DNA from: Gammaproteobacteria bacterium
Lineage (GTDB): Bacteria > Pseudomonadota > Gammaproteobacteria > Steroidobacterales > Foliamicaceae
Length of the DNA stretch: 64,000 nt
Reading direction: 5' to 3'
Assembly (NCBI GenBank): GCA_011523505.1
Contig: WTGP01000012.1
Coordinates: 1 to 64,000 of the forward strand
Part shown: positions 9,995 through 40,465 of the stretch, one piece after another
Layout: each line of letters starts with the position of its first letter
Numbering within the stretch: the stretch's first letter is position 1
The notes under the pieces: generated by a model
The model's input: only the letters and a program-made list of their open reading frames with translations
The model's database searches: none
What the model was told of the DNA's origin: nothing
Translations under genes and position numbers: made by a program

Positions 9995-10027
9995 AGCCGG
10001 ATTGAGTCGGCAGGCGGGCGCGCTAGA

Positions 10028-10963: not shown

Positions 10964-10967
10964 CACG

Positions 10968-16057: not shown

Positions 16058-16061
16058 GGGG

Positions 16062-17207: not shown

Positions 17208-17236
17208 GACTGTGCTCCTGGATTACAGGGCACCTA

Positions 17237-17270
17237 GTTTATACCGGAACCTGGTTTATACCGGAACCTG
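17237..17270. repeat. Perfect 17-bp tandem duplication
   Basis: The 17-mer GTTTATACCGGAACCTG occurs twice head to tail (17237-17253 and 17254-17270). It covers the last codons and stop of the FAD monooxygenase gene on the minus strand and the start of the gap to Rieske copy B. The duplication repeats the end of the reading frame, so a second stop-containing copy lies just beyond the used TAA. It looks like a recent slippage event. I see no regulatory logic in it. Confidence 0.9.
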
Positions 17271-25047: not shown

Positions 25048-27519
25048 ATGAGATTCAGACTTGCCGTTATTTGCGTCCTTGCTGCGGGCGCGATCATTGC
25101 CCCGCGTCCCGCGGTCACGCAGGAAGCCATGCTTGAGGAAATCATCGTGACCGCCCGCAAGCGCGAGGAGTCCGTGCAGGACATCCCGATCGCGGTCAGC
25201 GCCTTTACAGCAAACGACATCCGCGAACTGGGCATCAGGTCCGTTAACGATATTGCGCTCTACACCCCGGGCTTCTCGTTCCAGTCCGGTTTCGGGCGCA
25301 GTTCCAACCAGGACAGGCCGGCCATGCGCGGACAAACCACGATCATTAACGGAATTGCCAACGTGAAGGCGGTGTCCACGTTTGTGGACGGCATCTATGT
25401 GGGCGGCAAGGTTTCGTCCGTCGATATTGCCAACATCGAGCGCGTCGAAATCATCAAGGGCCCGCAATCCGCGCAATACGGGCGGGGCACCTACGCCGGC
25501 GCCATCAACTACGTAACCCGGCGGCCTTCGGAAGAACTGGAAGGCGAAATCACCGTGGGCGGCGCCGAGCACGAATCCTATGAGGTGCAGGGCTGGATCA
25601 GCGGCCCGCTGATTGAAGATACCGCCTGGTTCCGGCTTGCGGCGGGCTACGACCAGTACGGCGGCGAGCACGTCAACACGCTCACCGGTGACGAGGTCAA
25701 CGAGGAAAAAACCACCAACATATCCGGCAAGCTGTTCTTCACGCCCAACGAGCGGTTCGAGGCCACGTTGGCGCTGTCCTACCAGAAGGTGGACGACAGC
25801 CACCCGGCCCTTGCCCTGCAAGCCCGCGAGCACAACAACTGCTGCTTTCGCGGCGAGTCCACCGGAAGCCCGATCATTACCGGCGTGACCGGCCCCAGGG
25901 CGCGCGAGTACTACATTGGCGAGGCCCTGCGCAATCTGCCGGTGGCCCTCAATACCGCGGAACTTGATTCCGACACCGGCGCGGGCAACCGCCTGGATCG
26001 GATTACCGCTTCGCTGACCATGCACTACGACCTGGCCAACGATTGGCGCGTGTCCAGCCTCACCGGCCTGATCGACGACGAGTCCGAAACGGGCCTTGAC
26101 GGAACCTACGGCGGCTACGATTTCGGGGTGGCCTGGGTTAACGGTTACCCGCCTTTCCTGCGTCCCGGCCTGGGCCGGTTATTTTGCGTAACAATCGGCT
26201 TCTGCGGCCAATTCAATCGCATACTTGGCAACGACCAGTCCGACTTCTCCCAGGAACTCCGGCTTTCGTCTCCCTCCGACCGCGCATTTCGGGCCACCAT
26301 CGGCCTCTACTACTACCGGGGCAAGCAACACGAATACCGAGACGACAAGGTGATGACGGAATCGGCCGCGGCCCTCAGCGACCTGTACGGCTGGGGTCTG
26401 GTGGCCAGGACAGTGTCGCCCAACTCCACCATCGACTACGACGACGTCACCAACACGGCCGTTTTCGCTGCCCTCGAATGGGACTTGAGCGACAAGTGGA
26501 CCGCCACGGCCGAGGCGCGCGCCGCGACCGATGAAATAACGCTTGCCGTTTATGAACCCGGCGGGGCAACGCTACGCGGCCGCTACGAAGCCGAGTTCGA
26601 TTCCGTCAATCCAAGATTCACGCTGAGCTACAAGGCGAATGAGAACGCGAATCTGTATCTGAATATCGCCAAGGGTTCCAAGCCCGGCGACTTCAACACC
26701 CAGGTTCCGACCGGCGCGGACGGCAGCCCCGATGAATCCTTCCGCGCCGTGGACGAAGAAGTCGCCTGGAACTACGAAGCGGGATACAAAACGCTGCTGA
26801 TGGACGGCAGGACGGCGCTCAACGTGGCCGCCTATCTGACTGAAGTGACCGACCAGCAGTTCACGACCGTGATCGAGACGCCCACCGGGGGCAGCGCGTC
26901 GCTGCTCGACAACGTGGGCGAGACCCGCGTTGCCGGCCTGGAGGTTGATCTTCAGACGGCGCTGACCGACCAGTTGGTCGTGAATATCGGCTATGCCTGG
27001 ACCAACGCGGAGATTCAGGAATACGTCAATATCGATCAGGCGGACCTTAACGGCGCCAACGGCTCGCGTCGCGACCTGGCCCGCCTTGGCTCGGTGGCAG
27101 GCCAAAAAGTGCCGCGGATACCCGAGCACATGGCCTCTGTGGTGGCGCGCTACAGCGGCAACGCCATGGCGAGTGGCTTTGCCTGGTTCTTCACCGGAGA
27201 CGTCGTTTACGAAGGCTCGCGCTTTTCGCAAATCCACAACCTGATCGAAACCGGTGCGCTCACCCGGGTTGGCTTGCGAATCGGCGTTCGTCGCGACAAC
27301 CTGGAAATCGCTCTTTGGGGCAAGAACCTGTTCGATGACGACACTCCTCTCGACATCCTGCGCTACATCGACCGGCGCTCCGGCGGTTTGCCCAGCCACG
27401 CGCGCATCCCCGGCTATGTCCCCGGCGAACTGGGCAATCCGTCCAGCACCCCGCGCGGCTTCGCCATCTCGCTGCCCCGCGGCCGCCAGATGGGCGTAAC
27501 CGTCACCTACGGTTTCTGA
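25048..27519 (+). CDS. TonB-dependent outer-membrane receptor
   Basis: 823-residue receptor. A signal peptide (about 1-24) is followed by the TonB box region EEIIVTARKREESVQDIPIAVS, a plug domain (about 45-160, with RGQTTIINGIANVKAVSTFVDGIYVG and YGRGTYAGAINYVTRRP), and a 22-strand barrel to the terminal Phe. It belongs to the large group with the VTARKREE box found in marine and aromatic- or steroid-degrading proteobacteria. Ligand unknown. GGGAGG precedes ATG 25048. It lies between a two-component system and a Rieske plus sterol-methyltransferase pair, so sterol-like or other hydrophobic ligands are possible, though siderophore or glycan uptake cannot be excluded. Confidence 0.93.
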   Translation: MRFRLAVICVLAAGAIIAPRPAVTQEAMLEEIIVTARKREESVQDIPIAVSAFTANDIRELGIRSVNDIALYTPGFSFQSGFGRSSNQDRPAMRGQTTIINGIANVKAVSTFVDGIYVGGKVSSVDIANIERVEIIKGPQSAQYGRGTYAGAINYVTRRPSEELEGEITVGGAEHESYEVQGWISGPLIEDTAWFRLAAGYDQYGGEHVNTLTGDEVNEEKTTNISGKLFFTPNERFEATLALSYQKVDDSHPALALQAREHNNCCFRGESTGSPIITGVTGPRAREYYIGEALRNLPVALNTAELDSDTGAGNRLDRITASLTMHYDLANDWRVSSLTGLIDDESETGLDGTYGGYDFGVAWVNGYPPFLRPGLGRLFCVTIGFCGQFNRILGNDQSDFSQELRLSSPSDRAFRATIGLYYYRGKQHEYRDDKVMTESAAALSDLYGWGLVARTVSPNSTIDYDDVTNTAVFAALEWDLSDKWTATAEARAATDEITLAVYEPGGATLRGRYEAEFDSVNPRFTLSYKANENANLYLNIAKGSKPGDFNTQVPTGADGSPDESFRAVDEEVAWNYEAGYKTLLMDGRTALNVAAYLTEVTDQQFTTVIETPTGGSASLLDNVGETRVAGLEVDLQTALTDQLVVNIGYAWTNAEIQEYVNIDQADLNGANGSRRDLARLGSVAGQKVPRIPEHMASVVARYSGNAMASGFAWFFTGDVVYEGSRFSQIHNLIETGALTRVGLRIGVRRDNLEIALWGKNLFDDDTPLDILRYIDRRSGGLPSHARIPGYVPGELGNPSSTPRGFAISLPRGRQMGVTVTYGF

Positions 27520-27529
27520 CCATACTCCC

Positions 27530-27557
27530 GGGGGAGGGCATCCCGCCGCCCTCCCCC
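27530..27557 (+). terminator. GC-rich hairpin after TonB receptor gene
   Basis: Ten bases after the receptor stop, GGGGGAGGGC (27530-27539) pairs perfectly with GCCCTCCCCC (27548-27557) around an 8-base loop. Outer arms ACTCCCGGG and CCCGGGAGT extend the structure, and a second palindrome GTGGGGGCATGTCCCCCAC follows near 27572-27590. There is no T tract, so it may slow polymerase or protect mRNA rather than act as a classical terminator. The rest of the 205-base gap holds a repeated CATGCCCCTCGC and nothing else recognisable. Confidence 0.5.
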
Positions 27558-27724
27558 CCGGCAACCCGGGAGTGGGGGCATGTCCCCCACGTCATGCCCC
27601 TCGCGGCAGGTTCCCAACGCCATGCCCCTCGCTGCGTCTCGCGCTCCTTCCCGCTCATGTTCCTGTATGCTTGGGCGAACAACCTGAAACATACGGCGAG
27701 CTGGTCAACAAGCGGGGGCTTTGA

Positions 27725-28804
27725 ATGAATCTGGCGAACAAGCGTTATTACCCGCCGGGCAGGTACCCGGAAGGCTGGTATCTAGTGGAGATCGCCAGGA
27801 ATTTGCCCAAGGGCGGACTTCTCCAGAAAGAATGGATGGGCCGGCAGATCGTGGCCTGGCGCGATGCCGAAGGAAGAATTTGCGTGTCCGAGGCCTACTG
27901 CCCGCATCTGGGCGGACACCTGGGGCCGGACGGCGGCGGTTGCGTCAGAAACGGGCGTCTTGTCTGTCCCTTCCACGGCTTCGAATACGACGCCACCGGC
28001 CGGTGCGTGGCCACGCCGAATGCGCCGCCGCCCAGAACGGCGCGGCTCACTGTGTATGAGACGCGCGAACTCAACGGCCTCATTCTCGCCTGGTGGAGCC
28101 CGGTGGGACGCGAACCGCAGTGGGAGCTCCCCGAGTGGCCGGACAAGGAATGGCACCGCCTCCACTACGGGAGCGTACGGCTGCGCGGCCACCCGCAGGA
28201 AACCGCGGAAAACTCCGTGGATATCGCCCATTTCCGCTACGTGCATGGCTACGCGGCGGTGAAGCAGGTCGGAGACGTGCAGGTGGACGGCGCCTACCTG
28301 TGCAACCGGTTTGTTTTCAGGCGCAACGTTAAGCTGCTTGGCCTGCCGGTTCTTACCGATGTTGCCGCGACAACCCATGTGTGGGGCCTCGGCTACTCCT
28401 TCGTCGAGTTTCATGAGCGCGTAAGCGGGCTGAAACTGCGCCAGTGGATCCTTTCCACGCCCATTGACGATACGCACATCAAGCTCGTGGTCGCCCTCCA
28501 GATCAGGCGTTGGGAACCCGGGCAGAAATGGCTGGCGACATTGCTGCTTCGGTGTCTTCCCGCGAACTGGCTGACCCGGTTCTTCGTATCGCGGGTCAAG
28601 CACGACGTGCGCCAGGACGTGGCCATCTGGGAGAACAAGCGCTACCAGCCGCTGCCCATCCTGAGCCGCTCGGACGGCGAGATCATGACGTACCGGAAAT
28701 ACTGCGAGCAGTTCTATCCGGACGCCGAAGAGAGCCGCGCGCGTGTGCGCAGCCTCAAGCCCGCCCCGATTCATGCCGCGCGCGGCGCCAGGCTGGGCGC
28801 CTGA
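27725..28804 (+). CDS. Rieske oxygenase, steroid/sterol-type
   Basis: 359-residue Rieske non-haem iron oxygenase. Cluster ligands are in YCPHLGGHLG (C-x-H) and CPFHGFEYD (C-x2-H); the mononuclear site is ENSVDIAHFRYVHGY. This site and the overall layout resemble the steroid-acting group: KshA (3-ketosteroid 9-alpha-hydroxylase), DAF-36/Neverland (cholesterol 7-desaturase) and perhaps the bacterial sterol C-4 demethylase SdmA; I cannot choose among them. A hydrophobic segment near residues 270-290 (WLATLLLRCLPANWLTRFF) could associate with membrane. The gene lies 45 bases before a sterol methyltransferase homologue on the same strand, which supports a sterol substrate. No reductase is adjacent. 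Confidence 0.84.
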   Translation: MNLANKRYYPPGRYPEGWYLVEIARNLPKGGLLQKEWMGRQIVAWRDAEGRICVSEAYCPHLGGHLGPDGGGCVRNGRLVCPFHGFEYDATGRCVATPNAPPPRTARLTVYETRELNGLILAWWSPVGREPQWELPEWPDKEWHRLHYGSVRLRGHPQETAENSVDIAHFRYVHGYAAVKQVGDVQVDGAYLCNRFVFRRNVKLLGLPVLTDVAATTHVWGLGYSFVEFHERVSGLKLRQWILSTPIDDTHIKLVVALQIRRWEPGQKWLATLLLRCLPANWLTRFFVSRVKHDVRQDVAIWENKRYQPLPILSRSDGEIMTYRKYCEQFYPDAEESRARVRSLKPAPIHAARGARLGA

Positions 28805-28849
28805 TCCCTCCCGGCGGCACAAAACCACTTCCAGGGAGACCCGCGCGCC

Positions 28850-29890
28850 ATGCCGGCGAAACTGCCCACGTCACTGAGGAACGCCTACAGGGGCTGGTCC
28901 GTCGCCAGCCGCGTCGAGTCGTTTGAAGGCTGGCTCGACAGGCGGGAAGGCGGCGACGCCGAAGACCGTGGTTATGACCATGCCGAGACGGTCAATGACT
29001 ACTACTCGCTGTGCAGCGAGTTCATGCAGTTCGGGTGGAACGAATCGCTGCACTTCGCCCCATTGAGGCCGGGCGAAAGCCTTGACGACTCGATCCTCCG
29101 GCATCAGCGGCTCATGATCGGCAAGCTCCGGCTCAAGGAGGGGATGACGGTCATTGACGTGGGGTGCGGAGTGGGCGGTCCGATGCGCCGGGTCGCCCGC
29201 GAGTCCGGCGCCCGCGTCGTCTGCCTCAACAACAACGAACAGCAACTGGAAAAGGCGAAGCGCAGGAACGTTGAAGCCGGTCTTGATCACATGGCGGACT
29301 ACGCCCACTGCAGCTTCATGGACATGAGCAGGTTCGGGCCCGACTCCTTCGACGCGGGCTATGCGATCGAGTCCACCTGCCATGCGCCGGACAAGAAGGG
29401 CGCTTTTGCCGAGATCTTCCGCGTGTTGAAGCCCGGGGCCTTGTTCTGGGGGCAGGAAATGTGCCTGACGAACAAGTTCGATCCGAACAGCGCCCGCCAC
29501 CGGGCCATCGAGCGCGAACTCATGCACGGGATCGCGTTGAACGGGATCGCAACCTTCGCGGAGGTCGATCGGGCGCTGGAGGCGGTGGGGTTCGAAGTGA
29601 TCGAGGGAATGGACAGGGCGACGCAGGAAGATCCGTACACCCCCTGGTATCAGCCTATGGAGGGAGAAACCGGGACGTTCCGGAACCTCCTGCGCAGGAC
29701 GCCTGCGGGCCGGAAGGCCATGATCGGCATGGTGAAGCTCACGGAGGCGGTCGGACTCTTCCCGAAGGGCTCCAACACGGTGGTCCGGCTCATGGACCGG
29801 ACCGCGGAGGCTTACGTTGCCGGCGGCAAGACCGGGATATTCACCCCGCTCTACTGTTTTCTCGCGCGCAAACCAGCGCGGACTGCTTGA
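28850..29890 (+). CDS. Sterol C-24 methyltransferase homologue (ERG6/SMT)
   Basis: 346-residue SAM-dependent methyltransferase matching eukaryotic sterol 24-C-methyltransferases along nearly its whole length. SAM motif I is VIDVGCGVGGPMRR (101-114) with LNNNEQQLEKAK after it. The sterol-binding segments are FGWNESLHFAPLRPGES (61-77; yeast YGWGSSFHF region) and YAIESTCHAPDKKG (171-184; yeast YAIEATCHAP). The C-terminal SMT domain is recognisable in YTPWYQPMEGE, LTEAVGLFPKGSNTV and VAGGKTGIFTPLYCFLARKP. The position of yeast Tyr81 is Met here. It would transfer methyl from SAM to the sterol side chain. Bacterial SMTs are rare. Codon use and GC resemble the neighbours, so any transfer is not recent. 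Confidence 0.86.
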   Translation: MPAKLPTSLRNAYRGWSVASRVESFEGWLDRREGGDAEDRGYDHAETVNDYYSLCSEFMQFGWNESLHFAPLRPGESLDDSILRHQRLMIGKLRLKEGMTVIDVGCGVGGPMRRVARESGARVVCLNNNEQQLEKAKRRNVEAGLDHMADYAHCSFMDMSRFGPDSFDAGYAIESTCHAPDKKGAFAEIFRVLKPGALFWGQEMCLTNKFDPNSARHRAIERELMHGIALNGIATFAEVDRALEAVGFEVIEGMDRATQEDPYTPWYQPMEGETGTFRNLLRRTPAGRKAMIGMVKLTEAVGLFPKGSNTVVRLMDRTAEAYVAGGKTGIFTPLYCFLARKPARTA

Positions 29891-29894
29891 GTCC

Positions 29895-29921
29895 GCCCGT
29901 ATGTGTGCCTCCCTCTCGTTG
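29895..29921. repeat. Truncated arm of the palindromic repeat
   Basis: This 27-base stretch (core TGTGTGCCTCCCTCTCGTTGG) matches one outer arm of the palindromic repeat copy at 37761-37878 far better than the arm of the full copy right beside it. It looks like the remnant of another copy that lost its core and second arm. It begins 5 bases after the sterol methyltransferase stop. Confidence 0.7.
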
Positions 29922-29924
29922 GGT

Positions 29925-30041
29925 GCTTCGATCCCGCCCCTTTTTGTGCCTTCCTCTCGTGGGAGACGCCATCCTGGCTCGGAATCGCTATCCTGCTTTT
30001 ACGCTCCCTCGAGAGGAAGGCACAAAAAGGGGCTACGGTGG
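29925..30041. repeat. Palindromic dispersed repeat, copy 1
   Basis: 117-base element with perfect 20-bp inverted arms (29940-29959 and 30010-30029; outer part CTTTTTGTGCC, inner part TTCCTCTCG) around a 50-base core containing GCTCGGAATCGCTATCCTGC. Conserved flanks are GCTTCGATCCCGCCC on one side and GGGCTACGGTGG on the other. The reverse complement recurs at 37761-37878. It fills the gap between the convergent sterol methyltransferase and RND-adaptor genes and could fold into a long hairpin, so a bidirectional terminator role is likely. It carries no open frame, so it would be a non-autonomous (MITE- or REP-like) element. Confidence 0.85.
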
Positions 30042-30045
30042 GTGC

Positions 30046-31131
30046 TTAGCCTGTGGTGTCGCGCTGGACCCTGACGTGTTGGCCGGGACTGACGAATTCC
30101 TGGCCCACCGTGATCAATGTGACTTCGGCCGGCAATCCGGAAACCCACAGGCCGTCCGGATCTTCCCGGACCACGTCGATCGGGTAGAAGAGAACCCGCT
30201 GATCGTCGTCAACGGCGCGCACGCCCATTTCTCCGTTGGCGTCCAGCACCACGTAGGACATCCCCACCTTGTGCGCCGGCTGGGCATGCAGGGCCACTTC
30301 GACTTCCGCGCTCAACCCCGAGGAAATCGAAAAGTCCGGGTTGGGGACCGTCACTTCGATGGGATAGGTGCGTGACTGGTCCGCCGACTGCTTGCCGATA
30401 AACGTAAGCGAGCCGCGGGCCGTGCCGCCGGTGGCCATCGTGATCCGCACTTCGGCGCCTAGGTCCAGTTGCGGATACTGCTGCTCCGTGACCGCGGCCT
30501 CCACGTAGATCGGATCGAGATCGAGAACGGTGGCGCAGGGGCTGCCCATCTGCAGGTAGTCGCCCACCTCCGCATGCGTCTCTTCCACGAAGCCGGCGAA
30601 CGGCGCAACCACGGCGGTATTCTCAAGTTCCAGTTCGCTGGCCAGGAGCTGGCGGCGCGCTGAACTCAACTGGGCCTTGGCCCGGGCGACCGCGATCTCC
30701 TGCTGCAGGCCCCTTTCGCGCAGGGTCTTCATGCCTTCGTACTCCAGCGTCGCCAGATCGACCGCGTCGCCGGCCTCGCGAACGCGCAGTGCGCGGTCAT
30801 TGACCTCCACCTGGCAAAGCACATCGCCCGCCGACACCTGCGCCCCGATATCGATCGGCCGGTCATCCACGCGGCCGGATGTTTCGGCGCGCACCGTCAC
30901 CGCATGCCGGGTTCGCGTGCGGCCGCGCAGCGTCAGCGTCCTGGATTGTTCCGAAGCTCGGCTGGTTCGTACCCGCACCACGATGTCATCCCGCGCTTGG
31001 GCGCGCGAGGCGACCGACGCCTGCCCGTCGTCGTCGCCGCCGCCCAGAATTCCGGACAGCAGCCATACGGCGCAAACTGCAAGGACCAGCCCGGCCCACA
31101 ATGGTTTGCGCAGGGATTCCCTGATTTTCAT
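30046..31131 (-). CDS. RND efflux periplasmic adaptor (MFP)
   Basis: 361-residue membrane-fusion protein. An N-terminal anchor (about residues 11-29, LWAGLVLAVCAVWLLSGIL) is followed by the lipoyl-type half-motif VRAETSGRVDDRPIDIGAQVSAGDVLCQVE, a short alpha-hairpin (about 115-170), the second half VVAPFAGFVEETHAEVGDYLQMG, and beta-barrel and membrane-proximal domains. It links an inner-membrane RND pump to an outer-membrane channel. It is the last gene of a three-gene operon with the GPP34-P450 fusion (34 bases upstream) and the RND permease; no TolC-like gene is present. The stop lies 4 bases from the palindromic repeat. Confidence 0.92.
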   Translation of the reverse strand: MKIRESLRKPLWAGLVLAVCAVWLLSGILGGGDDDGQASVASRAQARDDIVVRVRTSRASEQSRTLTLRGRTRTRHAVTVRAETSGRVDDRPIDIGAQVSAGDVLCQVEVNDRALRVREAGDAVDLATLEYEGMKTLRERGLQQEIAVARAKAQLSSARRQLLASELELENTAVVAPFAGFVEETHAEVGDYLQMGSPCATVLDLDPIYVEAAVTEQQYPQLDLGAEVRITMATGGTARGSLTFIGKQSADQSRTYPIEVTVPNPDFSISSGLSAEVEVALHAQPAHKVGMSYVVLDANGEMGVRAVDDDQRVLFYPIDVVREDPDGLWVSGLPAEVTLITVGQEFVSPGQHVRVQRDTTG

Positions 31132-31165
31132 TTATTCGGATTCCGTCTAAACCGTGGCCCGCAGG

Positions 31166-33208
31166 TCAGAAGTCGTGACGCCTTTTGTCAATGGTAAATC
31201 GAAACTTGCTGTTCGGTGCGCTGGTGGGAAACGGATTGAATCTCATCTCATAGTCCGACGGAACGACGCTGATGTCGAAATAGTAGGCGATCAGGAGCAG
31301 GTTGATCGTCATTTGCAGTTCCACCCATTTCGACCCCAGGCAATGATGCGTCCCGAGCCCGAACGGCACGTATGCTCCCGCGCGCTTGTGCTCGTCCCGA
31401 GGCGGCGCGTAGCGGTCGATATCGAATTTTGTGGGATCGGGAAAAGTCTCTTCCAGGTGGTGCGCGGCGGTGTGCGCAAACACCACGCGAGTGTCCTTCG
31501 GAATGTTGTAGCCCTGCACCACGCAGTGGTTCATGGTGGTTCGAAGCTGCATCGGAATGACCGGATACAGGCGCTGGGACTCCAGGAACACCCGGTGGGC
31601 GACGTCGATCGCGGACCTCGTGAAATCGTCCTTGCCCGGGTCGCCGTTGGCGAACAGCGTTTCGGCTTCCTTCTGAACCCGGCGGTAGATTTCGGGATGG
31701 CTGGCCATGCCGTACACCGCGAAGCTCAGCCCGCTGCCGAGGTAAATGCTGGCGATGAAGCCCGCGACCAGCATGAAGCTCAGATCGGTCTCCGGGAAAT
31801 ACTGGGGATCGCTGGCGTGCAGGCTCAGAATATGATCGACCAGGTCCTTGGGTTTGCCTTTACGCTGCGCCGGCGTGTGCGCATTCAATACCCGGTTGAG
31901 CATCTCGAAAATGCGCTTCCTCTTCCTGGCCATGCCGGGCGTCTGCATCATGAATTTCGGCAGGGCTTTCTGCACTTGCGTGACCAGCGAGCGGTGTTCG
32001 TAGCTGAGGAGATCGTCGATATGGTCCGACGCGTCCACGCCCACCATGAGCTGCGACACCTGAACGCTCATCAGCTCCTGGCATGCGGCGGCGCCTGGCA
32101 TCGGTTGCCCCGGGACCCATTTCTCCAGTGACGCACGGCAGAATTTATATACTTCGTCCAGCCTCGCCTCCAGCGTCGCGCGGGAATAACCGGCGCGCAA
32201 GGACTTTCTCATTCGGTAATGCTCCGTGCCGTCCATGCCGGGCAAGGTCCGCGACGCACCGTACAGTTGCTCGAAGTCGGCCATGTGGTCCCGCGTGCGG
32301 AAATAGGTGCGGCCGTTGCGGTTGATCCATGCGTTGGTGTCCGGGCCGGCAAGCACGACAACGCCCTTTTCCGAGAAAGGCTTCTTGATCCTGAAAACCG
32401 GACCGTATTCCCTGTACAGGTCCGTCAGGATCCTTGAAAGGTTGCCCCGCCTCAGGTTTCGATTCGGAATCAGCTTCAGCAGGTTGGCGACCGGAATCGG
32501 CCGGGTGCGCCCTACGGGCTGCTGCACCGGGCGTCCCTGACTCTCCCTTACAGCCGCGCCGATGGCCCGTCCCACCAGGTCCATTTTGCAGAGCAGATCG
32601 ATGCGCTCGCGCGATTCCTCATACTCTTCTTCGGTGAGCAACAGCGGCAGGGCGTCGCATGCGGCAATCAGGCTGATCAGGATCACATCCCGGGGATCGG
32701 GAATCTCATCGTCCAGGATGGCGCGAAGGACGCGCGTCTTGACCTGCAGTTTGGTCGATCCGTCGTCCGCGGAGTACGTTCCGGTGCGCGATACCTGGCG
32801 GCTCAGGGACCAGAAGCCACCCGAATCGTGGTCCAGAATGTTCTTCTCGACCAGCCGGTCGAGGATGATGTCCATCGCGTCGTCCGATCGCTGCGCGGTC
32901 TTTTCGATCCAGTACTGGGCGTTGTGCACCGGCGGGGGCGCCGAGGCGATTTCCTCCAGCACCGGATCCAGCAGGGGGTCGCCCGTCTCCTTGGCGTCCA
33001 GGAGCGTAAGCGTCTCCGTATCGGTGTCGATGCGGAATTCGAGCGAAAGGTCCGCGAGCACCGAGCCCGCGATCACGCAGGACAGGTTCCAGGCGCCGAC
33101 GGGCTCGAAATAGCCGCTGTCTTCGTTAAGAAGAACCAGGGCCAACTCTTCTGCCAATCTCACAACTACCCCCGCAGTCGAATCAGTTGTCCATAAGACA
33201 CGGGTCAA
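31166..33208 (-). CDS. GPP34 domain-cytochrome P450 fusion
   Basis: 680-residue two-domain protein. Residues about 12-225 match the GPP34 (Golgi phosphoprotein 3) family: LAEELALVLLNED, the hydrophobic helix VIAGSVLADLSLEFRID, TGDPLLDPVLEEIA, RLVEKNILDHDSGGFW and DPRDVILISLIAACD. Eukaryotic GOLPH3 binds PI4P at membranes through this fold. Residues about 245-680 form a P450: K-helix ESQR (near E543), the FDIDRYAPPRDE segment and haem loop FGLGTHHCLG with ligand C623. The I-helix reads AGFIAS where AGxDTT is usual, so the acid-alcohol oxygen-activation pair is missing. It starts one base after the RND permease stop. I infer a membrane-docked oxidase of a lipid substrate; the fusion is unlike any P450 I know. 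Confidence 0.87.
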   Translation of the reverse strand: MTRVLWTTDSTAGVVVRLAEELALVLLNEDSGYFEPVGAWNLSCVIAGSVLADLSLEFRIDTDTETLTLLDAKETGDPLLDPVLEEIASAPPPVHNAQYWIEKTAQRSDDAMDIILDRLVEKNILDHDSGGFWSLSRQVSRTGTYSADDGSTKLQVKTRVLRAILDDEIPDPRDVILISLIAACDALPLLLTEEEYEESRERIDLLCKMDLVGRAIGAAVRESQGRPVQQPVGRTRPIPVANLLKLIPNRNLRRGNLSRILTDLYREYGPVFRIKKPFSEKGVVVLAGPDTNAWINRNGRTYFRTRDHMADFEQLYGASRTLPGMDGTEHYRMRKSLRAGYSRATLEARLDEVYKFCRASLEKWVPGQPMPGAAACQELMSVQVSQLMVGVDASDHIDDLLSYEHRSLVTQVQKALPKFMMQTPGMARKRKRIFEMLNRVLNAHTPAQRKGKPKDLVDHILSLHASDPQYFPETDLSFMLVAGFIASIYLGSGLSFAVYGMASHPEIYRRVQKEAETLFANGDPGKDDFTRSAIDVAHRVFLESQRLYPVIPMQLRTTMNHCVVQGYNIPKDTRVVFAHTAAHHLEETFPDPTKFDIDRYAPPRDEHKRAGAYVPFGLGTHHCLGSKWVELQMTINLLLIAYYFDISVVPSDYEMRFNPFPTSAPNSKFRFTIDKRRHDF

Positions 33209-36200
33209 TCATACGCCGGGAGAGCGGTCCGCGTAACTGTCTCCGCCGCGAAGCCGGACCGGCTTCGGCGCCCTGCTGCGCAGGTCCGTCAGAACACCCG
33301 AGAACATCCCCTTGAGCCGGCTCGGCAGCACCAGCAGCGCCGGCGTCAGGATCAGCGTCAGGATCGTGGCGAAGGTCAGTCCGGACACGACGGCCTGGGC
33401 CAGAGGCACCCAGTAACCCGAAAGCTCGCCTCCGGAGACCCACCTTCGGTTGATGAAATCCACCGATTGATGGCTGGCCAGCGGCAGCAGTCCGATCACG
33501 GTGGTGACGGTGGTGAGAAGCACCGGCCGCAGGCGCTGCAGTCCGGTAAGCACAATGAGTTCGCCGATGTCCCGGTCGGGAAATTCCCTGCGGCCCACGT
33601 TGTAGGTGTCGATCAGCACGATGTTGTTGTTCACGACGATGCCCGCCAGCGACACCACGCCCACCCCGCTCAATATCGCGCTGAACGGCTGGTTGGTGAT
33701 GACCAGCCCCAGAAACACTCCGGCCGTGGACAGCACGATCGCCAGCATGATCAGGAAGCTCTGGTAAATGTTGTTGAACTGCGTGACCAGCAACGCGAAC
33801 ATGAGCAGCAGCGCAAAGGAAAAGGCCTTGGAGAGAAAGTCGATCGACTCTTCCTGCTCCTCGGTCGTGCCGCGGAAGCGGATATCCACCTCCGAATCGA
33901 AAGTCTGGCTGTCCAGCCACGCCTGGATCTCCCGGATCTTGGCGTCCGGCAGCACGCCGGGCGCCACGCCGGCCCGGATCATGTGGATGTCCTCCTGGTC
34001 GGCCCGCTGGATGGTGTCCAGCCGGGGCGTCGCGCGCCGGGTGACGAAATTGGACAACGGCACAGGCCCGTTGCGGGTGACGATCCTCAGGTCGTCGAGT
34101 TCGTTGACGCCGCGGTCTTCGGTCGGGTAGCGGATCCTGATGTCCAGCGCATCGTCCGCGTCATCGGGGCGGTATTCGCCCAGCTTGGCGCCGTTCGTCA
34201 CGAGCTGCGTCGCCAGTCCAACGGTGGAGACGTCGGCGCCGTACAGGCCCGCCACGGCCCGGTCCACTTCCAGTTGCCATTCGATTCCGGGCACGGGAAG
34301 CGTGTCCTCGATGTCCCTCAGTCCTTCGACCTCGTTGACGATGTACTCGCGCACCCTTTCGACCACGGGAACAAGGCGCTCACGCTCATTGGAGGAGAAC
34401 TGCAGGGCGATCGGTTTGCCGGCGGTGATCTGGCTCTCGAACGGCCGCACTTCGATGATCACCCCGCCGAACCTCTCCGTTCGTCGCCGAACTTCCTCCA
34501 GCACTTCCATGCCGGTCGTGTCGCGCTGGCTGCTCTCGACCATCTCGACGAACATGGCGCCGATGCGGTCCGCGGTCGAGCCGCCCTGGTATTGCATCCG
34601 CTGTCCCTGGGCCTGGCCCGCGCCAGTCGTGGTGAACATGTTCAGGTTCTTGATGCCCGGGACCTCGAGGACCGCTGCCTCCACCTCGGCCACCAGCCGG
34701 TAGGCTTCCTCCACGTCCAGGTTGCCGCGGGCGCGCACGAACACCTGGGCGTAGGTGGGGTCGTTCTCGTTGAAGAAAAGCACGCCCAGGTCGCGCGAGC
34801 CATGCACCGTGAATATGCCCAGTACCAGCGCGATCACGATGGCGACCGTGACCAGGGGACGGCGCACGGCCAGCGCAAGCAGGCGGCCGTAGCCGCGCGC
34901 GAAACGGCCCAGCCGCGACCAGTCCAGTTCCCACATGCTGTCCGCGCCCGCCGCCGCCACGGCGGATACGAGGCTTCGGCGCCGGAACGTCGTGCCCAGG
35001 ACCGGGGCGAATATCAACGCGTAGAGCAGCGCTCCGATCAGCACCCACAGCAGGGTAATGGGCAGGTATCCCATGAAGGCGCCGGCCACGCCGGGCCAGA
35101 ACATCAGCGGCACGAAGGCCGCCAGGGTGGTCGCGGTGGAGGCCAGCACGGGCAGGAACATGCGCTTGGCGGCCGCCCCATAAGCCTCAAGTTCGGTTTC
35201 GCCTTCCGTGATTCGCCGTTCGGCATCCTCGGTGACCACGATGGCGCCGTCGATCAGCATGCCCAGACCCAGCAGCATGCCGAACATGACCATGAAGTTG
35301 AACGAGTGGCCGAACAGCCACAGGAAGATCAGCGCGAACAGGAACGAAACCGGGATGGCGCCGGCCACCAACAAGCTGCTCCTCAGGCCCATGGCCGGGA
35401 ATATGACCAGCATCACCAGCACCAGAGCGGTCACGATGTTCCCCTGCAATTCGACGATCTGCTTGGCGGCGAACTGGGACGTGTCCTGGGAATAGAACAT
35501 GTTGACGCCCGCGGGCAGCCGATCGCGGAAACCGTCCGCCACTTCTCGGACCGCGGTTGCCGTTTCGATGCTGTTTGCGCCCGAACGCCGGTACACGAAC
35601 ACCGATATGGAACGCTCGCCGTTGGCGTGGGAGTAGCTGGCCCGGTCCTTGAACGTGCGCCTCACCGAGGCCACGTCGCTCAAGGTCACGACCGTGTCGC
35701 CTTCGATGCGCACCGGAATGTCGAGCAGGTCGTCCGTGGATTCGATGACGCTGGGCACCTTGACCGAGACGCTCCCCTGGGCGGAATCCATCGCGCCCGC
35801 CGCGATCAGCCGGTTGTTGCGCGTCAGCGCCCCGTAGAGCTCCTCCACGGACATCCGGTAGGTCGCGAGCTGCTCCGGCCGGATGAGGATTTCCATGAAC
35901 TCCTCGCGGTGCCCCTGCAGCGCCGCCAATTGCACCTGGCCTACCGTTTCGATCCGGTCGCGAAGGCTGCGCGCGGTGGCGTAGAGAGTTTCCTCCGGTG
36001 TATTGCGTCCTACCAGGTTGATCTGCAGCACGGGGTAGTCGGTGGTCGCGGTCTCCTCGACGATCGGCTCCTCCGTCGTGGACGGGAACTCGGGCTTGGC
36101 CCGATTCACGGCCTCGCGCACGTCGCTCAGTGCTACGTCGAGGTCGATTCCCGTCTGGAACTCCACCCCCACCATGGCCATGTTCTCGGCGCCCGTGCCG

Positions 36201-36466
36201 GTGATTTCCCGGACGCCTTCAACGGCCTTGAGCTCGATTTCCAGCGGCAGGATCAGCAGCCGCCGGGCGTCTTCCGGAGAGATGCCCTCGTGAACGACCG
36301 TGATGACGTAGAACGGGATTTCGATGCGGGGTTCGCTCTCGACCGGGATCGACACGCGCGCGACGATCCCGAAGATCACGATGCCGATCATCGCCAGCAG
36401 CGTGGACCGCCGACGCTCAAGCGATAAATCGATGATCCTGTCTTTCATGCGAAATGGCGCCGCCAC
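33209..36466 (-). CDS. RND-family efflux permease (HAE1-like)
   Basis: 1085-residue proton-driven inner-membrane transporter with the duplicated RND layout: TM1 (TLLAMIGIVIFGIVA), a large porter loop, TM2-6 (about 335-490), TM7 (about 540), a second loop and TM8-12 (about 880-1040). TM4 reads GMLIDGAIVVTEDAERR, so the AcrB Asp pair D407-D408 is D-G here; TM10 has GIVVNNNIVLID where AcrB has Lys940. Start options are GTG 36466 and ATG 36448 (1079 residues); neither has a clear ribosome site. It is the first gene of an operon with the GPP34-P450 fusion and an adaptor. The substrate may be the P450 product; bacterial sterol transport by an RND protein (BstA) is a known precedent. Confidence 0.93.
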   Translation of the reverse strand: MAAPFRMKDRIIDLSLERRRSTLLAMIGIVIFGIVARVSIPVESEPRIEIPFYVITVVHEGISPEDARRLLILPLEIELKAVEGVREITGTGAENMAMVGVEFQTGIDLDVALSDVREAVNRAKPEFPSTTEEPIVEETATTDYPVLQINLVGRNTPEETLYATARSLRDRIETVGQVQLAALQGHREEFMEILIRPEQLATYRMSVEELYGALTRNNRLIAAGAMDSAQGSVSVKVPSVIESTDDLLDIPVRIEGDTVVTLSDVASVRRTFKDRASYSHANGERSISVFVYRRSGANSIETATAVREVADGFRDRLPAGVNMFYSQDTSQFAAKQIVELQGNIVTALVLVMLVIFPAMGLRSSLLVAGAIPVSFLFALIFLWLFGHSFNFMVMFGMLLGLGMLIDGAIVVTEDAERRITEGETELEAYGAAAKRMFLPVLASTATTLAAFVPLMFWPGVAGAFMGYLPITLLWVLIGALLYALIFAPVLGTTFRRRSLVSAVAAAGADSMWELDWSRLGRFARGYGRLLALAVRRPLVTVAIVIALVLGIFTVHGSRDLGVLFFNENDPTYAQVFVRARGNLDVEEAYRLVAEVEAAVLEVPGIKNLNMFTTTGAGQAQGQRMQYQGGSTADRIGAMFVEMVESSQRDTTGMEVLEEVRRRTERFGGVIIEVRPFESQITAGKPIALQFSSNERERLVPVVERVREYIVNEVEGLRDIEDTLPVPGIEWQLEVDRAVAGLYGADVSTVGLATQLVTNGAKLGEYRPDDADDALDIRIRYPTEDRGVNELDDLRIVTRNGPVPLSNFVTRRATPRLDTIQRADQEDIHMIRAGVAPGVLPDAKIREIQAWLDSQTFDSEVDIRFRGTTEEQEESIDFLSKAFSFALLLMFALLVTQFNNIYQSFLIMLAIVLSTAGVFLGLVITNQPFSAILSGVGVVSLAGIVVNNNIVLIDTYNVGRREFPDRDIGELIVLTGLQRLRPVLLTTVTTVIGLLPLASHQSVDFINRRWVSGGELSGYWVPLAQAVVSGLTFATILTLILTPALLVLPSRLKGMFSGVLTDLRSRAPKPVRLRGGDSYADRSPGV

Positions 36467-36533
36467 CCCCGCTGACTTCGCTATTGAGTTGGAGTATAAC
36501 GAAAAGGCTCAAAACCATTGCTTTAGCTGTCGA

Positions 36534-37748
36534 ATGAAATTGATCCCCTATCGCGAGGCTTGCGCCACCCTTGCCGAGGCCTGTACACCGGGTCCCGAGG
36601 AGTCGCTTTCCGCCCGCCAAGCCCCTGGCGCGGTTGCGTCCCGGCCCGCGGTAGGCGCCGTCGCCTCACCGGCATTCAACAACGCGGCCATGGACGGCTT
36701 CGCCATATGCGCCGAGGACACGTCCGCCGCCGCGGAAGGTTTTCCGGTCGAGCTTCCGGTTGTTGGCGAGCTGAAGGTCGGTGCGCACGCGGAAACCGCG
36801 CTGCCCGGGTCCGGGTGCGCGCTGCGGGTTGCCACGGGCGCCTTGACGCCGCCCCCGCTGGACACGGTCGTACCTCTGGAGCAGGCGACGGTGATCGAGC
36901 GGTCCGGCACGACGGTATTGCGTTTTTCCGAACCTGTAGAGAAGGGACGCAACCTGCGCATCATGGGCGAGGAGTATCCGGCCGGCGCCGCGTTCGATTT
37001 CACCGGCAAGCGCCTTCACGCCGGGCATGTCGCGCTCTTGTCCGCCGCCGGTATCGGCGAGTTGCACGTTCGCAGGCCGCCCCCGCTGGGCTTGCTCACT
37101 ACGGGCGACGAGGTGCGCCCTCCCGACGCCGCGCTTGCGCCAGGAGAGATAGCCAACGTCAACGCGGCCTGGATGGCTGCCTGGTGCGCCGAGCGGCGGG
37201 TCCCCGTGGCGCATGCGCAACACGTTCGGGATGATCCCGGCGACCTGGCGCGCGGGTTTCGGGATGCCCGCGAGTCCGGCGCCCGGGTCCTGGTCTCAAG
37301 CGGGTCCGCTTCGGCGGGGAGGCACGATGTTCTGCGGGGAGCGCTCAAGGAACTGGGAGCCCGGATCGTTTTTCACGGCGTCGCCATGCGGCCCGGCAAA
37401 CCGGCACTGTTCGCGCTGCTGGACGACGGGACCCCCGTATTCGGGCTTCCCGGCAATCCGCTGGCCACGGCCGCGGGCATGCGATTCCTGGTCTGGCCCG
37501 GCATTCGCGCAATCCTGGCAATGAAGCCCGAAAAGCCCCAACGCAAGCCGCTCGCTCACGCCTGCGACCTGCGCGAAGGCCACACACACTTCCTCCTGGC
37601 CCGCCGCGACAACGAAACAGGAGCGCTGAAGCTTGTGCATCCCCAACGCCCGGGCCAGGCCGGCGCCCTAGCCGCCGCCTCCTGCTGGCTGCGCCTCGAC
37701 GGCGGCCGATCAGAAGCAGGCACCCTCGCCGACTCCTACCCCCTCTAA
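36534..37748 (+). CDS. moeA: Molybdopterin molybdenumtransferase MoeA
   Basis: 404-residue enzyme that inserts molybdate into adenylylated molybdopterin. Typical motifs are NNAAMDGFAI, GRNLRIMGEEYPAGA, LLTTGDEVR, FHGVAMRPGKP and FGLPGNPLA. The segment usually TSGGVSVGxxD reads SSGSASAGRHD: two glycine/valine positions differ but the catalytic Asp is kept. ATG 36534 was chosen because the codons before it lie in the divergent promoter region of the RND operon. No other molybdenum-cofactor genes are in the window, so it is an orphan here. It converges on an MFS gene with a palindromic repeat between. Confidence 0.9.
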   Translation: MKLIPYREACATLAEACTPGPEESLSARQAPGAVASRPAVGAVASPAFNNAAMDGFAICAEDTSAAAEGFPVELPVVGELKVGAHAETALPGSGCALRVATGALTPPPLDTVVPLEQATVIERSGTTVLRFSEPVEKGRNLRIMGEEYPAGAAFDFTGKRLHAGHVALLSAAGIGELHVRRPPPLGLLTTGDEVRPPDAALAPGEIANVNAAWMAAWCAERRVPVAHAQHVRDDPGDLARGFRDARESGARVLVSSGSASAGRHDVLRGALKELGARIVFHGVAMRPGKPALFALLDDGTPVFGLPGNPLATAAGMRFLVWPGIRAILAMKPEKPQRKPLAHACDLREGHTHFLLARRDNETGALKLVHPQRPGQAGALAAASCWLRLDGGRSEAGTLADSYPL

Positions 37749-37760
37749 CCCAGGATGCTG

Positions 37761-37878
37761 CCACCGTAGCCCGTTTGTGTGCCTCCCTCTCGTGGGAGCG
37801 TAAAAGCAGGATAGCGATTCCGAGCCAGGGATGGCGTCTCCAACGAGAGGGAGGCACACAAACGGGCGGGATCGAAGC
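37761..37878. repeat. Palindromic dispersed repeat, copy 2
   Basis: 118-base element, reverse complement of the copy at 29925-30041. It has perfect 23-bp inverted arms (37770-37792 and 37844-37866; inner part GCCTCCCTCTCG) and the same core (GCAGGATAGCGATTCCGAGC). The arms differ from copy 1 at several positions, yet each copy is a perfect palindrome, so changes in one arm are matched in the other. It exactly fills the gap between the convergent moeA and MFS genes. Hairpin terminator and non-autonomous mobile repeat are both consistent. Confidence 0.85.
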
Positions 37879-37884
37879 GCGGAG

Positions 37885-39210
37885 TCAGGCGGCGCGGGCG
37901 GCGGCGCGGAAGTGTTTGAGGCCGTAGAAGAGGAACAGGCCCGCTATGGGTGACGCGATTGCGCCGACCAGGGCGATCGAACTGCCCACCGCCTCGTTGT
38001 AGCCGAACACGCTGTCGATGACGAAGCCCACCGCGGTCGGTCCGGCGATTGCCGACAGGATATTCAGCATCAGCATCCAGACCGCCGAGACCGTGGCGCG
38101 CAACTGGTTGGGCGTCACCAGTTGCAGCGCGGCCGGGCCGCTGGCCACCGCGAAGCATCCGAAGAAAGCGTAGGGACAGAAAAGCACCATCGTCCAGAAC
38201 GGGCTGTCGAGTTGCGTCGTGACAAGGCACAGCGGAGTCAGCGCCGCCGCCGCTATGATGCCCACCCAGAGCGGAGCGTCCACACGCCCGCGCCTTCTCA
38301 GGAAATCGGTGAACCAGCCGCCCGCGAACACCGCCGCCGGCGAGCAGATCAGGAGAATCCATCCCAGGTACTGGCCCGCCTCGGATGCCGTGTAGCCGAG
38401 GTTGCGGATCAGGTGCGTCGGTCCCCACAGGAGCAGGTTGGCGATCGGCGCGGCCAGGATGGCGAAGCCGAAGAAGTGCGCCAGGAACATGCGCCACCGC
38501 TTCGAGAAGAACTCGATCACGACGGGCCAGGGGATTTTCTGATCCACGCCCTCCATCAGGCCCTGGCGCGGTGGCTCGCGCATCGTCAGCGCCAGTAGCG
38601 CCACCAGCACGCCGGGCAGGCCCACGATGATGAACGCGAGCTGCCAGGGCTTGAACTGCATCAAGAGGTCGGCAAGCCCCGCGGGAAGCCGATCAAAGGG
38701 GATCGCCGCGACCAGCTCGATGACCTGGGCGCCTACCAGGAACGCGACGCCCGCGCCGATGAAGGCGGCACACTGGAACACGCCCAGCGCCGTGCCGATC
38801 CGGTCCTTCGGAAAGTAGTCGCTGATAAGCGAGTAGGCGCAGGGAGACAGCGTGGCTTCGCCCACGCCCACGCCCACGCGCGCCAGCGCCAGGTGCCAGA
38901 AGTTGCGCGCCAGTCCGCACGCGGCGGTCATCAGGCTCCAGAGGAATATGCCCGCGGCCACGATCAGCCGCCGGCTGCTGCGGTCCGCCAGCCGCCCGAT
39001 CGGCAGGCCCATCAGCGCGTAAAAGACCGCGAAATACAGTCCTCCCAGCAGGCCGATGGCGAAGTTGTCGATCTGCAGGTCCCGCATGATGGGCGGAACC
39101 AGAAGCGAGAGGATCAGCCGGTCCAGGAACGAGAAGATGAAGGCGATCATCAGCACGCCGACGGCGTACCAGGCCACCAGCGGGCTGGGCCGTTGCGGCG
39201 TGTTGTTCAT
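37885..39210 (-). CDS. MFS transporter (spinster/OPA-like)
   Basis: 441-residue major-facilitator transporter with 12 predicted membrane segments. Signature A (GLPIGRLADRSSRRLIV) follows TM2, and LARVGVGVGEATLSPCAYSLISDYFPKDRIGTALGVFQ is typical of the anion/spinster-type branch common in aromatic- and steroid-degrading proteobacteria. ATG 39210 was chosen over an upstream in-frame Met because the latter overlaps the preceding gene. It lies 4 bases downstream of an HsaA-like flavin monooxygenase, implying uptake or export of that enzyme's substrate or product. Confidence 0.9.
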   Translation of the reverse strand: MNNTPQRPSPLVAWYAVGVLMIAFIFSFLDRLILSLLVPPIMRDLQIDNFAIGLLGGLYFAVFYALMGLPIGRLADRSSRRLIVAAGIFLWSLMTAACGLARNFWHLALARVGVGVGEATLSPCAYSLISDYFPKDRIGTALGVFQCAAFIGAGVAFLVGAQVIELVAAIPFDRLPAGLADLLMQFKPWQLAFIIVGLPGVLVALLALTMREPPRQGLMEGVDQKIPWPVVIEFFSKRWRMFLAHFFGFAILAAPIANLLLWGPTHLIRNLGYTASEAGQYLGWILLICSPAAVFAGGWFTDFLRRRGRVDAPLWVGIIAAAALTPLCLVTTQLDSPFWTMVLFCPYAFFGCFAVASGPAALQLVTPNQLRATVSAVWMLMLNILSAIAGPTAVGFVIDSVFGYNEAVGSSIALVGAIASPIAGLFLFYGLKHFRAAARAA

Positions 39211-39214
39211 GCCG

Positions 39215-40465
39215 CTACCAGGGCTTTTCGATATCGACGTCGGTGAGCGGGTCGCCGGTGGGCACACCCAGCAGCAGCTTGCCCGTGGGCATCATCCCGG
39301 TGTCCCAGTTGAGGCCGCCATGGGTCGAGATCGTGCGCATGTCGCGGTAGTGGCGCTGCACGGGGTTGTTGCCGGTCTGCCCGGTCACGCCCATCATGTT
39401 GGCCAGCCGCTCGATGGCGCTAAGGCAGAGTTTGGACGCCATGGCCGGTTCCCGGCGGATGCGCAGACGGTCGATTCCGCGAATCCTCTTGCCGGAACTG
39501 CCGGCCTCGTGCAGGAACTGCATCAGGTTGTCGGTGATCAGGTCGGCCACCCGCAGTTCCTCGAAGGATTCCGCGACCCGGATCTGCACCGGAACCTGCT
39601 CGACGATGCTCTCGCCGAACATCTGCCCAGTGCGTTCCCGTGTCTGTTCCAGGTAGTGTTCCAGGCCGCCGCGGGTCGCCCCCAGCATCGGCCCGCACAG
39701 CAGCGTATAGAAAAGCTGTCCCAGTTCGGTGCGATAGATATAGCTCTCGTGCAGCTTCGCTCCCGGGGGTTCCTTGCCGGCCAGCTCCTCCGATCGCACG
39801 GTCCGGTACTCCGGCACGAAACGGTCCTTGACCAGTATGTCCTTGCTTCCGGTGCCCTTCAGCCCCTCCGCATGCCAGGTGTCGACGATCTCATAGTCTT
39901 CCGGTAGCAGGTGCGCCATCCGGTATCTCAACCTGCCCTCGGAAGTACGATTCTTGATGTTGTAGCGCCCGCCCACGACGGCGCAGTTCGCGTGGTCCAC
40001 GCCGCTGGCGAAACGCCACTGGCCGTTCAGCACGAAGCCGCCGTCCACCGGCTCCATCGTTCCGCCGCCGGCAAAGGCGGTCGCGATGATCGCGTCCGGC
40101 TTGTCCGGCCAGAATTCCTCCTGCGCCTGTACCGGAAAGCGCCCCAGTATCCAGGTGTGGGACATCACCACGGATGCCACCCAGGACGTGGATCCGCAGC
40201 CGCGGCCGAGTTCGCGGGAAACGTCCACGTGTGCGCCCCAGTCCATCTCGAATCCGCCGTAGCGCCTGGGCGTGAAGATCTTGTGGATTCCGGCCGCCTT
40301 CAGATCGGCCACGGTTTCATCCGGCAGCGTGCGAAGCTCGTCGGTCGCCTGGGCGCGCTCGCGCAGTACCGGCACCAGCTTGCGCGCCTCGAGTACCAGT
40401 TCCTCGCGTGTCGGAATGTAGCTGGGTTGCGCCGCGGTCGCGCTCGTGCTCTTGGTCTGCGCCAC
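39215..40465 (-). CDS. Acyl-CoA dehydrogenase-fold flavin monooxygenase, HsaA-like
   Basis: 416-residue group D flavoprotein monooxygenase with the acyl-CoA-dehydrogenase fold. LPDETVADLKAAGIHKIFTPRRYGGFEMDWG and GRGCGSTSWVASVVMSHTWILG resemble the oxygenase component of HsaAB (secosteroid hydroxylase), phenol and 4-hydroxyphenylacetate 3-hydroxylases. The segment GGFVLNGQWRFASGVDHANCAVVGG is the flavin-site strand, and the acyl-CoA catalytic Glu is not evident. Such enzymes need a separate flavin reductase, which is not adjacent. It shares an operon with an MFS transporter. The steroid link is suggestive because sterol-type genes lie 10 kb away, but phenolic substrates are equally possible. 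Confidence 0.8.
   Translation of the reverse strand: MAQTKSTSATAAQPSYIPTREELVLEARKLVPVLRERAQATDELRTLPDETVADLKAAGIHKIFTPRRYGGFEMDWGAHVDVSRELGRGCGSTSWVASVVMSHTWILGRFPVQAQEEFWPDKPDAIIATAFAGGGTMEPVDGGFVLNGQWRFASGVDHANCAVVGGRYNIKNRTSEGRLRYRMAHLLPEDYEIVDTWHAEGLKGTGSKDILVKDRFVPEYRTVRSEELAGKEPPGAKLHESYIYRTELGQLFYTLLCGPMLGATRGGLEHYLEQTRERTGQMFGESIVEQVPVQIRVAESFEELRVADLITDNLMQFLHEAGSSGKRIRGIDRLRIRREPAMASKLCLSAIERLANMMGVTGQTGNNPVQRHYRDMRTISTHGGLNWDTGMMPTGKLLLGVPTGDPLTDVDIEKPW

Follow-up and report, generated by a model that had tools for sequence, protein, structure and literature searches.

What joins a sterol methyltransferase, a steroid-type oxygenase, a cytochrome P450 and an efflux pump that lie side by side in a gammaproteobacterial genome, and on whose sterols would they act? 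The locus occupies positions 25,048 to 40,465 of the stretch analysed here (the window: 64,000 nucleotides of contig WTGP01000012.1, assembly GCA_011523505.1), which belongs to a genome of 3.1 Mb in 53 contigs from an uncultured bacterium that probably lives in a sponge. A first-pass annotation took the whole interval for a candidate island for the uptake, tailoring and export of sterols, and favoured scavenged ones. That observation was partly right. In many phyla, a sterol methyltransferase (SMT2), a KshA-type Rieske oxygenase, a fusion of a GPP34 (Golgi phosphoprotein 3) domain to a P450 and an RND-superfamily exporter are genetically linked as a core, and we read the region as a module of linked genes with which symbionts of those phyla tailor sterols. 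Behind this stands an open question: which organism makes the unusual sterols of sponges, and hence how the 24-isopropyl and 26-methyl steranes of ancient rocks should be interpreted.

Core families around SMT2

A scan of named genomes with SMT2 returned 230 relatives, and gene neighbourhoods were taken for the best 80 of these (60–94% identity); the genomes behind the 150 weaker methyltransferase matches were left out of the locus comparison. Every genome compared is a metagenome-assembled genome (MAG). The best 80 come from Gammaproteobacteria, Alphaproteobacteria, Nitrospirota, Chloroflexota, Acidobacteriota, Gemmatimonadota, Actinomycetota and Dadabacteria, and the module core was found in MAGs of at least six phyla. 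Some bin names (RHO, COS, IRC and APA among them) correspond to sponges named in PMC8163846; going by names alone, most bins would derive from sponges and the ‘Plut’ bins from corals.

Unbiased clustering of the 1055 open reading frames (ORFs) around the 80 SMT2 loci gave the sterol methyltransferase (75), GPP34-P450 (53), Rieske (33) and RND (28) families as the four commonest, followed by HlyD, a flavin adenine dinucleotide (FAD) oxidoreductase of the LkcE-like amine-oxidase family, and an outer-membrane factor. A Rieske gene lies near SMT2 in 40 of the 80 loci and an RND-superfamily gene in 42, the latter count pooling three unlike types. The TonB-dependent receptor, MFS, HsaA-like and MoeA-like genes of the window are near SMT2 in only 3 to 6 of the 80; the MFS and HsaA-like genes recur in 3 loci each, and the HsaA-like gene only in the window genus.

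The same association appears at the scale of whole genomes. GPP34-P450 is present in all 50 SMT2-bearing genomes tested, at full or nearly full length except at one contig end. Among 147 relatives the fusion occurs in 14, comprising 11 of 11 with an SMT2-clade gene versus 3 of 136 without (Fisher P = 3e-14, a value that ignores relatedness), and it was found in 2 of 369 Gammaproteobacteria. The clustering and the genome-wide association together reject a chance grouping of the core genes. Co-occurrence in relatives, which the first-pass annotation had itself named as the test of its island, is therefore passed by the four core families and failed by the TonB receptor, MFS and HsaA genes, which we no longer count with the system, since none of them recurs beyond the window genus. 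Tailoring and export gain from this result, as the four core families are found together across phyla, whereas uptake is not supported for this organism: the TonB receptor, like the MFS and HsaA-like genes, is a lineage-specific neighbour.

Gene order and orientation are variable, and no more than 400 bp separate the P450 gene from SMT2 in 28 of 54 loci. In the window genus, the order TonB–Rieske–SMT2/HlyD–GPP34-P450–RND–MoeA–MFS–HsaA is mostly kept in genomes G001, G002, G003 and G006. The TonB receptor is a tandem pair in several close relatives, the Rieske gene is truncated or replaced in two genomes of the genus, and the synteny comparison found neither a TonB receptor nor a Rieske gene beside SMT2 in G005. 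In G006, an AAA_14/DUF4143 gene (L036:5105-6262) occupies the Rieske position of the sister genomes and has likely replaced the Rieske gene. Another family of the same order keeps SMT2 together with a GPP34-P450 and/or an RND protein of only 25% identity. In four Nitrospira MAGs the module adjoins the core sterol cluster, which has SMT2, the P450 and in most cases the Rieske gene next to it. At most of the examined loci where GPP34-P450 lies away from SMT2, its neighbours are Rieske, FAD oxidoreductase, ERG4-like reductase or MMPL/LolA-like transport genes; ERG4-like reductases were also seen as neighbours of the module in Dadabacteria. A locus in a 1.7 Mb genome of another family (L145:2407-11213; G374:C13) carries GPP34-P450 beside an RND gene and its neighbours, with no SMT2 or Rieske gene nearby.

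Three unlike RND-superfamily types fill the transport slot: an AcrB-like type A, accompanied by the HlyD adaptor in 8 loci; an AcrB-like type B that brings an adaptor and an outer-membrane factor of its own; and an MMPL type with a sterol-sensing-domain match. That the exporter gene is swapped and its role kept speaks strongly for transport as part of what the module does. The sterol transport system BstABC (PMC10942540) and the hopanoid transporter HpnN likewise include an RND-superfamily inner-membrane transporter beside sterol genes. BstA, however, is of the MMPL family (NF045600), whereas the window protein matches ACR_tran and AcrB/MdtB models rather than that of BstA, has MdtB and AcrB as its closest solved relatives and comes with an HlyD adaptor; MMPL types replace it in some other loci. 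The pump had been annotated as part of an RND–P450 fusion, which is ruled out by the ORF positions and Pfam domains: the two are separate, adjoining ORFs, and the P450 is joined instead to its N-terminal GPP34 domain.

Motifs of the core enzymes

SMT2 has the domain content of the Erg6/SMT family, with a methyltransferase domain and a Sterol_MT_C domain above the curated cut-off (66.2 bits versus 21.7; 69.4 bits in the genome search), and its S-adenosylmethionine-binding motif reads GCGVGGPM. Region I, for which a YEWGWGKSFHF-type motif is canonical in Erg6, departs from that form: it reads F-M-[VQ]-[FYW]-G-W-[GNS]-E-S-L-H-F in SMT2 and F-Y-E-W-G-W-G-K-S-F-H-F in SMT1 of the same genome. In all 81 SMT2 sequences, Met replaces the first Tyr, Leu replaces the first Phe of SFHF (giving SLHF), and the Glu that follows the Tyr position is kept in only 10 of them. 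The proteins studied by Brown et al. in 2023 (PMC10070321) are, like SMT2, Sterol_MT_C methyltransferases of sponge-symbiont genomes, some in sterol clusters and some in cyclase-free bacteria (Chlamydiae); those authors state that 26-methylating enzymes are undiscovered.

In the P450 fusion, both domains are present in 47 of 47 members. The heme Cys and the ExxR motif are invariant in 53 of 53 sequences, and the acid/Thr pair of the I helix is absent from the same 53, in which (I/V/L)-Ala stands instead, so that Ala takes the place of Thr. Among solved structures, the P450 domain is closest to CYP51 chains, and it also resembles CYP51 in a heme motif with His for Arg. It differs in its attachment to GPP34 and in lacking both the acid/Thr pair and the AGxxTS-type I-helix signature of CYP51, and the genome has a separate, typical CYP51. 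The fusion would give bacteria a new means of positioning a P450 at the membrane. Taken with the non-canonical region I of SMT2, the missing I-helix pair makes unusual chemistry possible, and the motif changes indicate altered specificity or chemistry in both enzymes.

The Rieske oxygenase of the window matches KshA_C (94.8 bits) and Rieske (67.2 bits) in Pfam, and its closest solved structures are those of KshA. CxH-CxxH and the iron-site His pair (N-x-x-D-x-x-H-x4-H) are found in all 35 relatives, and the ligand Asp in 34, with one gap. The enzyme has in common with KshA the Rieske cluster, the iron ligands and the KshA_C domain, the combination expected of a steroid Rieske oxygenase. It differs in having no curated equivalog above cut-off (43 bits versus a cut-off of 600 with the SdmA model NF052579) and in its setting: no steroid degradation cluster was recognised among the genes annotated around it, and sterol-building genes adjoin in Nitrospira. 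It is probably akin to the Neverland/DAF-36 Rieske oxygenases.

Ring synthesis and the origin of the substrate

Genes for ring synthesis, which the first-pass annotation had reported as lacking, are indeed missing from the interval but not from the genome. On contig C45, positions 163582 to about 172730 hold, in order, an SdmB-like reductase, an SdmA-like Rieske oxygenase, ERG24, CYP51 and a fusion of squalene epoxidase (SqMO) with oxidosqualene cyclase (OSC), with SMT1 on the opposite strand. This content and order are those of the core sterol clusters known as msb and ‘clusters of steroid genes’ (CSG). The CYP51 has the motifs AGQHTS and FGGGKHRC, and the Rieske protein matches NF052579 over its full length at 403.5 bits, below the cut-off. 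The fusion (C45:168283-171732; 1149 residues) is in frame. Its SqMO half is an FAD monooxygenase whose assignment as an epoxidase comes from inspecting the sequence and from a FAD_binding_3 relative at the matching place in locus L050. Its OSC half scores 748.5 bits with TIGR03463, under the cut-off of 851 but far above the hopene-cyclase model, and has the lanosterol-type valine in its motif VSDCTAE; the spacing from CYP51 to the cyclase domain is identical in several relatives.

Other contigs carry two squalene/phytoene-synthase-family genes (C13), a second ERG4/ERG24 reductase (C27) and, at 78% identity, the FAD oxidoreductase seen around the SMT2 loci (C34). This FAD oxidoreductase and the second ERG4/24-like reductase (C34 and C27; L168, L169) each lie near a TonB-receptor gene, as in the window module. 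Beside the sterol cluster, C45:133-157 kb has a third-position GC of about 0.5–0.6 compared with about 0.8 elsewhere, and may be a foreign segment. The cluster and the squalene-synthase-family genes together make de novo sterol synthesis likely in this organism, and the argument that it lives on scavenged sterols fails because its genome has a complete sterol cluster of known type.

The core sterol cluster, including the epoxidase–cyclase fusion, is already published in sponge symbionts. The same components as in the C45 cluster make up msbA-F of a gammaproteobacterial symbiont of Melophlus (PMC7074536) and the CSG of Ircinia MAGs (PMC9531527); there too, sponge symbionts, many phyla and evidence of gene transfer are shared features. 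The fusion was rejected as a novelty because MsbE is reported to be bifunctional (PMC7074536) and fused homologues of the epoxidase and cyclase are mentioned in PMC10070321. The msb and CSG clusters are the ring-building first stage, whereas the module in the window is a separate locus, and the available text of PMC7074536 and PMC9531527 was not found to describe its components. Nor did we find the tailoring module or the GPP34-P450 fusion described in the open-access literature searched.

Across relatives, the module is separable from ring synthesis. An oxidosqualene cyclase was found in 21 of 50 SMT2-bearing genomes, mostly in ORFs of 1125–1413 residues, a length that fits the epoxidase fusion; 29 genomes are without one, including every Acidobacteriota, Gemmatimonadota and Dadabacteria genome tested (few per group). 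As the cyclase is absent from whole groups, incompleteness of the MAGs is unlikely to be the sole cause. ERG4/ERG24-family reductases occur in 43 of the 50, and cyclase presence switches at least 12 times on the SMT2 tree. Two Acidobacteriota MAGs without a detected cyclase (L150, 9829; L151, 8882) have a core-type ERG24 of 70% identity, with the other core genes not beside it. The SMT2 tree needs 16 phylum changes where the minimum possible is 6, which suggests that the module moves between phyla by gene transfer; misbinning contributes to that number.

We consider it fairly probable that the module carries out a second stage of sterol modification, followed by export, on sterols that are home-made or acquired. 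Squalene would be made, epoxidised and cyclised by the SqMO–OSC fusion to a lanosterol-type sterol, the C-14 and C-4 methyl groups would be removed by CYP51, ERG24 and SdmA/B, and SMT1 would methylate the side chain. SMT2 might then extend the side chain by another carbon or by one at a different position, and the Rieske enzyme might hydroxylate or desaturate the rings. The GPP34 domain would keep the P450 at the membrane, where this enzyme would make one more oxidative change. The RND–HlyD pump would deliver the end product to the outer membrane or release it from the cell, in the direction of other symbionts or the host; in cyclase-free symbionts, the same module could act on sterols of the host or of neighbours. 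From what is known of the families, we infer that the substrate is a sterol, that its side chain is methylated further, that the Rieske enzyme oxidises the rings, that GPP34 attaches the P450 to the membrane and that the RND pump exports the product. The tailoring and export set occurs in at least six symbiont phyla, whether or not they build the rings, and its SMT2, GPP34-P450 and KshA-type Rieske enzyme make a short list of testable enzymes.

Several points weigh against this proposal. Without the usual oxygen-activating I-helix pair, GPP34-P450 may not be a normal monooxygenase; region I of SMT2 is non-canonical, and some assayed bacterial sterol methyltransferases showed no activity with desmosterol and 24-methylenecholesterol (PMC10070321); most RND pumps of the AcrB type export drugs; and loci L061 and L077 have identical genes in bins of two phyla, possibly through misbinning.

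The strongest competitor, which we nevertheless regard as unlikely, is a system that mainly imports host or environmental sterols through the TonB receptor and alters them. The 29 cyclase-free genomes and the repeated switches in cyclase presence would suit it, as would the TonB receptors beside SMT2 in the window genus and flanking the FAD oxidoreductase and second ERG4-like genes. The full de novo cluster in the window’s own genome speaks against it, and so does the receptor itself, not kept beside SMT2 in G005 and missing from the wide module, with siderophore-type receptors as its top NCBIfam models, every one below cut-off. Scavenging is still plausible for those 29 genomes.

Modification of another polycyclic or isoprenoid lipid, such as hopanoids or sponge triterpenoids, would turn the sterol names into artefacts of homology. 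To this we give little credence. SMT2 and the P450 have diverged from known enzymes, the MMPL transporter of one locus weakly resembles HpnN hopanoid transporters, and a sponge-symbiont cluster has been linked to the triterpenoid sarasinosides (PMC7074536); yet Sterol_MT_C and KshA_C independently indicate sterols, as do the adjoining OSC/CYP51/ERG24 cluster in Nitrospira and the ERG4-like neighbours in Dadabacteria. Steroid catabolism by KshA/HsaA-type genes is very improbable: the structural likeness of the Rieske enzyme to KshA, an HsaA model (NF045629) as the best NCBIfam match of the flavin monooxygenase gene and the mention of sponges among hosts in a metagenome survey of steroid catabolism (PMC5790920) are outweighed by an HsaA score of 290.5 bits against a cut-off of 450, by the restriction of that gene to the window genus, by a methyltransferase that builds side chains and so is not catabolic, and by the lack of any recognised KstD, HsaC or HsaD in the annotated surroundings of the module (whole genomes were not searched for them specifically).

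A bolder form of the tailoring-and-export proposal, which we regard as a long shot, would make SMT2 and GPP34-P450 the missing sponge-holobiont enzymes for sterol side chains or nuclei that are beyond every known enzyme (for example, C-26 methylation), with a membrane P450 that is not a monooxygenase and with export to the host. If so, the ‘animal’ sterol biomarkers of sponges would in part come from bacteria, made by a set of genes that passes from phylum to phylum.

Remaining features of the window

A Pfam check confirmed the TonB receptor, Rieske, methyltransferase, HlyD, P450, RND, MFS and acyl-CoA-dehydrogenase-fold monooxygenase genes at the positions in Table 1; the HsaA label of the first-pass annotation is weak.

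Table 1. Genes of the probable sterol-tailoring locus and its flanks, in window coordinates
Feature	Position	Strand	Support	Remarks
Two-component system (response regulator and histidine kinase)	23173..24971	+	Pfam, synteny	5' of TonB receptor; genus-level neighbour
TonB-dependent receptor	25048..27519	+	Pfam Plug and barrel	
KshA_C-type Rieske oxygenase	27725..28804	+	Pfam KshA_C and Rieske	Module core
SMT2 sterol methyltransferase	28850..29890	+	Pfam Methyltransf_11 and Sterol_MT_C	Module core
HlyD-type periplasmic adaptor of RND pump	30046..31131	-	Pfam HlyD_D23 / HlyD_3	
GPP34–cytochrome P450 fusion	31166..33208	-	Pfam; GPP34 residues 18-222, P450 residues 249-658	Module core
RND exporter, AcrB/MdtB-type (type A)	33209..36466	-	Pfam ACR_tran, 502 bits	Module core
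MoeA-like molybdopterin protein	36324..37748	+	Pfam MoeA_N, MoCF_biosynth	Inside island interval
MFS transporter	37885..39267	-	Pfam	Genus-level pair with HsaA/HpaH-like gene
HsaA/HpaH-like flavin monooxygenase, acyl-CoA-dehydrogenase fold	39215..40465	-	Pfam	Genus-level pair with MFS transporter

The true start of GPP34-P450 is probably near 33160, and the MoeA-like gene is probably an unrelated passenger. Elsewhere, window positions 14912-18425 (- strand) hold a tandem pair of VanA_C-type Rieske oxygenases, the first also a weak KshA_C match, adjoining an FAD_binding_3 monooxygenase, and positions 8990-11876 (+ strand) hold three FGE-sulfatase (SUMF1-like) genes in tandem.

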